Below are positions 7,825 through 62,260 of a stretch of 64,000 nt of DNA, piece after piece. The stretch comes from Pyrinomonadaceae bacterium (lineage in GTDB: Bacteria > Acidobacteriota > Blastocatellia > Pyrinomonadales > Pyrinomonadaceae). The translations under genes were made by a program, and so were the position numbers. The stretch covers positions 496,001-560,000 of the forward strand of contig DASUNM010000027.1 of NCBI GenBank assembly GCA_036277115.1, in the 5' to 3' direction. The notes below the pieces were generated by a model that saw nothing but the letters and a program-made list of their open reading frames with translations, was not told the origin of the DNA and did not search any database. The first letter of the stretch is position 1. Each line of letters begins with the position of its first letter.

Positions 7825-8046
7825 TCAACCTCGAAGCGGGTCGCCCCAGCCGGACTGCACGTACTTACCGTCCTTTACGATGCAGGGCACGGTCGGATCG
7901 CCGCCTGAATATTTCAACATCTGGGCGCGAAATTCTTTGTTGGTCTGGGCGTCACGATCGATGAACGTGAGGCCTTTCGAGTTGTAGTACTCGCGGGCCT
8001 GCTGGCAGTAAGGACAGCCGGGTTTTGTGTAGATTACTAAAGCCAC
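7825..8046 (-). CDS. Glutaredoxin-family thiol-disulfide protein
   Basis: The 73-aa protein starts at a GTG (8044-8046) with a good ribosome site, GGAGGTG, eight bases upstream. The open frame continues upstream to 8178, but that extension is translated repeat DNA (SLTPALSQRERE) and is rejected. The dithiol active site KPGCPYC is near residues 7-13, and DPTVPCIVKDGK carries the cis-Pro (TVP) of the thioredoxin fold. Length and motif fit NrdH/GrxC-type redoxins, which reduce ribonucleotide reductase or other disulfides; the partner is not visible here. Upstream lie a repeat and a terminator with an attenuator-like fold (8316-8444). Confidence 0.88.
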   Translation of the reverse strand: MALVIYTKPGCPYCQQAREYYNSKGLTFIDRDAQTNKEFRAQMLKYSGGDPTVPCIVKDGKYVQSGWGDPLRG

Positions 8047-8123
8047 CGCTCGAACACCTCCAGGGCGAAGGTGGATTCTAGCAGAGATTTGGAGTGCGGT
8101 GGCAACTTGGAGTGCCTCCACCT

Positions 8124-8262
8124 CCCTCTCCCTTTGGGAGAGGGCTGGGGTGAGGGAGCGAAGCCTAGCGGCAAACAAAAGGAAGAGAAATATTTTTCCT
8201 TTCGTTCGCTAGAACCCTCGCCCTAACCCTCTCCTCAAGGGAGAGAGAACGCCTCCAAAGCG
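8124..8262. repeat. Palindromic repeat pair, family D (CCCTCTCC type)
   Basis: A perfect 21-bp palindrome (8124-8144, CCCTCTCCC-TTT-GGGAGAGGG) is followed by GGCTGGGGTGAGGG and about 70 bp later by the partly complementary CCCTCGCCCTAACCCTCTCC. The class is widespread in bacterial metagenomes. A second, in-frame copy lies in an amidohydrolase gene at 13983-14070. Confidence 0.8.
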
Positions 8263-8315: not shown

Positions 8316-8349
8316 AAAAAAGGACGAGCGTGCCTCATCGCTCGTCCTT
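8316..8349 (-). terminator. Rho-independent terminator, minus strand
   Basis: Read on the minus strand: an 11-bp perfect stem AAGGACGAGCG/CGCTCGTCCTT with an 8-base loop, followed by six T residues. Its 5' stem strand overlaps the closing stem of the preceding fold (8342-8444), so the two structures exclude each other. Confidence 0.85.
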
Positions 8350-8444
8350 CTGGCGCAACCAGTAGGTTTTCCGGATTAGCCCCTCCGGGATGAAACTTTT
8401 AGCCGCGCCGGATATTTGACGCGCCGGCTACCTCAGAAGGACGA
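8342..8444 (-). promoter_or_regulatory. Riboswitch-like attenuator candidate (unknown class)
   Basis: On the minus strand this 103-nt segment is closed by a perfect 11-bp stem TCGTCCTTCTG/CAGAAGGACGA. It encloses a TAGCC(G)GCGC/GCGCGGCTA hairpin, a CCGG-loop-CCGG hairpin and a CTGG-TTGCG-CCAG hairpin. The 3' strand of the closing stem is also the 5' strand of the terminator at 8316-8349. That is the usual layout of a terminator-controlled riboswitch in which aptamer formation allows read-through. I could not match it to a known class. The next gene downstream is the glutaredoxin (8046). It could instead be only the trailer of the transglycosylase gene. Confidence 0.5.
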
Positions 8445-8516
8445 AGTTTTTCAGATACGTAACGTCTTAATCCCTCTCCCTTTGGGATGGCATTAACTTA
8501 TTTGACTCATCAGGTT

Positions 8517-8720
8517 CGCAACCCGAAGGGTTGCTAGGGAGTAGCCGGGGGTCGCAGCGAAGCGTAGACCCCCGGAAATTGTTGGTGCAAGATTCGGCAC
8601 CCTGAAAGGGTGCCAGACGGTCTGTGACCCTTTCAGGGTCAAACATCACAGACACTCGATCCCGGGGGTATCGCGCTGCGCGCTCAACCCCCGGCTACTC
8701 TCTTTCAGCCCTTCGGGCTG
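8517..8720. repeat. Composite palindromic repeat between transglycosylase gene and attenuator
   Basis: Outer 14-bp perfect arms GAGTAGCCGGGGGT (8539-8552) and ACCCCCGGCTACTC (8687-8700) enclose smaller palindromes: GCACCCTGAAAGGGTGC, TGACCCTTTCAGGGTCA and AGACCCCCGG. Flanking ones are CAACCCGAAGGGTTG and AGCCCTTCGGGCT. I see no gene in 8047-8756 apart from the terminator/attenuator and these repeats. Confidence 0.8.
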
Positions 8721-8756: not shown

Positions 8757-9587
8757 TCACCAGAGCCGGCTGCGCGTCGCTTCGAATGACGAGAGCGGCT
8801 GTGTTTGCAAGCCGAAAGCCTGTGGGTTCTCGCCAATGATGGCCGCGGCAAAAAATCGCGGTACGTAATAGACATTCTCATTCTGAAACGTGGCATCAAG
8901 CTTGTGGCTGTTAGCGGTAAGCGCACAAATACTGCAAGCCGCATTTTCAGACGTCACCAGCAGGGCAAGATCGCGTTCGACGTTCCCTCCACCACGGTTG
9001 TAGGAAAGAATCGCCAGCGCTTCTTTCATCGGATCATTTTTGAATGTCTTCATGCTCCGCATGATGTAACGAGCGGCGGCATCGGCTGACTTATCAACGT
9101 CGAGAAGGTCCAGGGGCGTCAATCCGAAATGCGCGCCGGTCTTCTGGGTGAACTGAAACATGCCTAACGAACCCGCCTCGTTCGGAGACTGAATATTGAT
9201 GTAGGCGGATTCGATCGCGGGGATGTAAAGACCAATCAGGGGCGACACTTTATGCTTCTTAAAAATGCCATTGATTGTTGGCGCGGACGACTGCCCGCGT
9301 TCAAACATTGATCGCGTGCCTTTTCCCGCCTCGTTGCTTTCGATGCGTTGCACGTAGAAGTCGACGTGCTTTTGGATGGTAGCTTCGAACGCGGGCGTGA
9401 ATTGATAATCGTTTCCCGACATCTCGCGCGCGATGCTGCGCGCTTTGGCCGACACAAAGGCGGTGCGCTCAGCCGCAGTCATCTGCTGATAGAGCTTGTT
9501 TGATTGCGCATTTGCGACACGTCCCGGCGACATCGCGAAACAGGTTGCGATAGCAATTAGAAAAAATGTGAGTCCTCGAAGTTTCAT
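8757..9587 (-). CDS. Secreted SLT-type lytic transglycosylase
   Basis: The 276-aa precursor has a signal peptide (cleavage near AANAQ-like VANAQ, residue 28) and a soluble lytic transglycosylase domain. The catalytic glutamate is E126 in IPAIESAYI, and GSLGMFQFTQKTG and LAILSYNRGGGNVERDL are the expected following blocks. Such enzymes cut peptidoglycan glycan strands, leaving 1,6-anhydro-muramic ends. An N-terminal helical region (MTAAERTAFVSAKAR...HVDFYV) and the C-terminal block FAAAIIGENPQAFGLQTQPLSS are also found in the outer domain of the kinase at 10518, so the two are paralogs. A 250-bp gap separates it from the divergent sigma factor gene. Confidence 0.9.
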   Translation of the reverse strand: MKLRGLTFFLIAIATCFAMSPGRVANAQSNKLYQQMTAAERTAFVSAKARSIAREMSGNDYQFTPAFEATIQKHVDFYVQRIESNEAGKGTRSMFERGQSSAPTINGIFKKHKVSPLIGLYIPAIESAYINIQSPNEAGSLGMFQFTQKTGAHFGLTPLDLLDVDKSADAAARYIMRSMKTFKNDPMKEALAILSYNRGGGNVERDLALLVTSENAACSICALTANSHKLDATFQNENVYYVPRFFAAAIIGENPQAFGLQTQPLSSFEATRSRLW

Positions 9588-62042: not shown

Positions 62043-62260
62043 AAAGAGTCCGCGAAGCGGACGTCAGCATAAAGCCTGGGGCGTAAGCCCCAGGAAACAA
62101 ATCGTAAAAGGTTCCAGAGCCCGCGGAGTGGGCGACAGAATCAAATCTATTGTCTGTCGCCCGCTTCGCGGGCTCAACGATCTTTGTAGCGTATCAACCT
62201 GCGGTTTCGCTTCGCTCCACGCCAGGCTTTATGTTGACACCTGCTCCGCAGGTTTGGACG
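62043..62260. repeat. Cluster of palindromic repeats between guaB and aminotransferase
   Basis: GTCCGCGAAGCGGAC, CCTGGGGCGTAAGCCCCAGG, then a larger palindrome with arms GAGCCCGCGGAGTGGGCGAC and GTCGCCCGCTTCGCGGGCTC, and ACCTGCGG...CCGCAGGT. No gene is seen in the 269-bp gap. Confidence 0.75.

Follow-up and report, generated by a model that had tools for sequence, protein, structure and literature searches.

A conserved structured RNA ending in an intrinsic terminator precedes a glutaredoxin gene in one acidobacterial genus

Overview of the locus

The window, a 64,000-nucleotide stretch of a Pyrinomonadaceae genome, carries on its minus strand a structured element of ~100 nt (8316-8415) that lies between two gene blocks. 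Upstream is a lytic transglycosylase (SLT) gene (8757-9587; Pfam PF01464, 4.4e-12) and downstream a glutaredoxin-family gene (7825-8046; Pfam PF00462, 3.2e-16) with a likely GTG start at 8046, both on the minus strand as well. The element consists of a P1 domain followed by an intrinsic terminator. Stem P1 pairs the 5′ strand GGCGCGGCTA (8400-8409) with the 3′ strand TGGTTGCGCC (8352-8361) and encloses an inner hairpin, CCGGA-GGGGCTAA-TCCGG (8371-8388). The terminator stem-loop AGGACGAGCG-ATGAGGCA-CGCTCGTCCT occupies 8321-8348, with the hairpin reaching from about 8318 to 8351, and runs into a U-tract at 8316-8321. P1 and the terminator are clear of each other.

Both flanks are crowded by long inverted repeats of the dispersed type (8123-8248 and 8519-8720), whose 34-nt arms are 82-85% complementary, and loci L016 and L019 from relatives have similar CCCTCTCCC repeats on either side of the element. 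Since such repeats recur around it in the window and in relatives, the junction seems to collect insertions.

Distribution and conservation

The element occurs in six of the seven genomes of the genus, once in each, with the same glutaredoxin gene immediately downstream in every case. The seventh genome has neither the element nor the repeat-protein gene described below, nor, at the threshold used, that glutaredoxin. Between genomes the element is 76-94% identical, whereas the four-fold sites of the adjacent glutaredoxin gene are 35-50% identical in 14 of 15 pairs and 75% identical in the closest pair. Because its identity so far exceeds that of these sites, the element is, as judged by this comparison, under strong purifying selection.

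A covariance model (R1) searched against 119 genomes of the family and 162 of the class found nothing convincing beyond the six. One 33-bit match in another genus was treated as chance, as it has no conserved core and its E-value of 6e-4 per genome amounts to ~0.07 over 119 genomes. With filters off, the surroundings of glutaredoxin in 17 other family genomes gave only noise. The original prediction was of a terminator-linked structured RNA of unrecognized class, and both halves of this description hold: the element is a structured RNA joined to a terminator, and conserved as such, and the covariance-model search it proposed matched no Rfam family, whether at gathering thresholds, at E-values up to 10 locally, or at the element in relatives. 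Weak matches to microRNA models at locus L018, with scores far short of the models' gathering thresholds, coincided with a long inverted repeat next to the element and were rejected. The locus holds an unannotated, strongly selected structured RNA that is restricted to one acidobacterial genus.

Acido-Lenti-1 RNA (RF01687), of unknown function, is likewise a structured RNA found in Acidobacteria, but it is a distinct family of 46 nt and has no match at the element. A copy of it is present elsewhere in the window (62047-62094, minus strand; 40.6 bits, above the gathering score), and L018 has two near-threshold copies toward the transglycosylase end (2333-2379 and 2180-2226).

Consensus structure and RNA strand

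Six sequences, one per genome carrying the element, were aligned for covariation analysis and consensus folding. P1 is formed by CAGCGTGACTA with TGGTCACGCTG in the relatives, in place of the strands given above, and the inner block reads AAAGUUUCAnCCCGGAGGGGCUgAAUCCGG. Across the alignment 98.7% of cells pair (98.4% in P1), and four pairs are changed on both sides compared with a mean of 1.3 in shuffles, two of them in P1 and two in the terminator. The original prediction had held that a lack of covariation in homologs would count against it; covariation is present in both stems. Column-shuffled alignments never reached the consensus energy, with z-scores of -8.4 for the whole element and -5.2 for the P1 domain alone. 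The terminator loop, GAGGCA, is the same in all six genomes, and the U-tract is kept in each.

The alignment also bears on which strand is transcribed. Read as minus-strand RNA, 152 of 154 cells pair, compared with 144 for the plus strand. Nine cells are G-U pairs in the minus-strand RNA but mismatched when read as plus-strand RNA; the opposite holds in a single case. This asymmetry favors the minus strand as the transcribed one and speaks against a DNA palindrome in place of an RNA.

The inner hairpin has a highly conserved sequence (GGAGGGGCTgAATCCGG) that varies little or not at all among the six genomes, and its pairing is not certain. Neither CCGGA/UCCGG nor the alternative UUUCA/UGAAA (TTTCA/TGAAA in DNA) has covariation support among the six; in L018 the former is broken at one pair and the latter is preferred.

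A closing stem private to this genome

Folding of the window sequence reveals a further pairing outside the conserved element. An arm at 8434-8445 on the minus strand, UUCGUCCUUCUG, is complementary over 12 nt, with one G-U pair, to 8341-8352 in the region of the terminator 5′ arm, and the two close a multi-hairpin fold with a stem of 11-12 bp (-48.6 kcal/mol, z = -4.4). As the 3′ strand of this closing stem shares nucleotides with the terminator 5′ arm (8339-8348), only one of the two structures can form at a time in this sequence, and the two states are nearly equal in energy: -57.3 kcal/mol for the closing-stem state and -57.0 kcal/mol when the terminator is forced. None of 5000 shuffles of the upstream 60 nt produced a complement as long. 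The closed minus-strand fold, the strong terminator behind it and the overlap between their stems, all parts of the original prediction, are therefore borne out here.

The prediction went on to read this mutual exclusion as the hallmark of a transcription-attenuating riboswitch, and that step fails in the relatives. The overlap is missing from all five homologs, where the best complement to the terminator 5′ arm region is 5-7 nt. Their best folds include the terminator in five of five cases and P1 in four; in the exception, L019, the P1 strands pair otherwise when a longer flank is included, and the core alone folds with P1. Because the homologs have only these short complements and fold best with the terminator, the closing stem belongs to this genome alone, and it may be a recent gain.

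Relation to glutaredoxin

Glutaredoxin homologs were found in 29 of the 40 genomes searched. Between the terminator and the glutaredoxin gene lies a spacer of ~100-270 nt that differs in sequence in each genome and often contains repeats. In the window this spacer contains a putative -10 element, TAGAAT (extended, TGCTAGAAT), at 8075-8080 on the minus strand. Most members of the family, including all six of the genus, have similar -10-like elements of the TGCTAAACT type ~27-40 nt ahead of the glutaredoxin start codon, whether or not the RNA element is present, and TTCTCA often stands ~18 nt upstream of them. Since the -10-like element sits downstream of the terminator across most of the family, glutaredoxin most likely starts its own transcript there. 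The promoter-like block TTCTCA-N18-TGCTAAACT (window 8075-8080, loci L054-L074) may itself be usable as an acidobacterial promoter consensus.

The start region of glutaredoxin was the sole target tried for base pairing with the element, and in most genomes the predicted duplex was no better than with shuffles.

The upstream side

In five of the six element-bearing genomes, the gene directly upstream on the same strand is DREL, which encodes a small protein of repeats that carry RRD motifs. The query that finds DREL in these five relatives finds none in the window genome, where SLT is the next upstream gene, so that DREL has apparently been lost here. DREL (L016:878-1321; upstream of the element also in L017, L018 and L019) has repeats of the type RRD(I/V)R and is probably secreted; no Pfam family matched it above the cut-off. 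In L018 its reading frame extends into P1 and ends there. SLT is not a fixed neighbor either, as it lies ~32 kb from the element in genome G002.

Homology between the six genomes ends just 5′ of P1, beyond which the sequence differs in each and often consists of repeats. No shared promoter is visible there, and a scan with a consensus promoter also found none, though the scan is insensitive, as it misses the putative glutaredoxin promoter too.

Discussion

We favor, with a probability of about 0.5, the reading that a minus-strand transcript from upstream ends in this element, a structured 3′ end that is likely stable and used in trans. A transcript would enter from the upstream gene, ancestrally DREL behind SLT and here SLT. 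After copying the P1 domain, RNA polymerase would transcribe the terminator, so that P1 and the terminator hairpin form side by side, and transcription would end in the U-tract. The stem-capped 3′ fragment would likely remain stable and act in trans, either as a small RNA derived from a 3′ end or as a 3′ UTR that binds protein. The original prediction had named a simple 3′ trailer of the transglycosylase mRNA as the outcome that would speak against it. A trailer of the upstream mRNA is indeed what we favor, but the element is conserved far beyond what a plain terminator needs.

Conserved small RNAs derived from 3′ ends offer the closest parallel in kind; a review of such RNAs names conservation reaching past the terminator as the feature to search for (PMC9438474). 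Like CpxQ and SdhX, the element follows an upstream gene with conserved sequence and structure, ends at an intrinsic terminator and is conserved above its surroundings (PMC9438474); the coding gene that it follows is on the same strand, and the conservation of the element extends beyond the terminator. It differs in having no homology to them, in being confined to one acidobacterial genus, and in having an inconstant upstream gene. This last point counts against a tie to any one upstream gene: the element persists without DREL in the window genome and far from SLT in G002, and its adjacency to glutaredoxin, kept in all six genomes, is its most constant neighbor relation.

The main rival to the 3′-end reading is a free-standing small RNA gene, which would be located between glutaredoxin and the upstream gene, have a promoter of its own and end at the terminator. 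That the element outlives both the loss of DREL and the separation from SLT suits such a gene, as do its length of ~100 nt with the terminator and its sequence conservation beyond the stems. It lacks a conserved upstream promoter, however, the sequence 5′ of P1 being different in each genome, and we consider this reading possible but doubtful.

Less probable again is that the upstream transcript simply ends in a strong terminator, the hairpin 5′ of it being incidental; P1 could then do no more than protect or insulate. The terminator hairpins have energies of -17.8 to -20.8 kcal/mol, mostly nearer the mean for 3′ terminators (-20.2 kcal/mol) than that for 5′ terminators (-16.5 kcal/mol) (PMC2965389), which is weak evidence in its favor. 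P1, the single-stranded parts and the terminator loop, however, are all conserved far above neutral sites, and a plain terminator would have no need of such conservation.

The original prediction preferred a leader or switch for the downstream glutaredoxin. The near-equal energies of the two exclusive folds in this genome and the unbroken adjacency to glutaredoxin would fit a transcription attenuator or riboswitch, and attenuating leaders likewise place a structured domain directly before a terminator. In the element, by comparison, the overlap is unconserved, position within a 5′ leader is only putative and no Rfam riboswitch matches; the promoter-like element between terminator and gene, together with 100-270 nt of unrelated intervening sequence, speaks further against this role, which we regard as quite improbable. 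Because the overlap is not conserved and glutaredoxin has a promoter-like element of its own, the element probably does not serve glutaredoxin as a conserved attenuator or riboswitch. A narrower version is slightly more remote still: a genus-specific regulatory RNA whose constitutive terminator has been made, by the newly gained 12-nt 5′ arm in this genome, into a two-state switch that reads through toward glutaredoxin. That the element is one copy of a dispersed repeat (REP/MITE type) between genes, as the repeats on both flanks might suggest, can be set aside as highly improbable, since it is present once per genome in a constant place and so fails to be multi-copy.

The comparison with relatives shows how a fold with mutual exclusion in a single genome can mislead, as here it puts a conserved 3′ end in place of the riboswitch reading. 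Should the two-state switch with its new arm nonetheless be real, it would be an attenuator caught while evolving. With the element, a phylum that has been little studied gains a structured RNA under strong selection; if the element acts in trans, as the 3′-end reading would have it, acidobacteria would gain in it a small RNA that is specific and can be tested.
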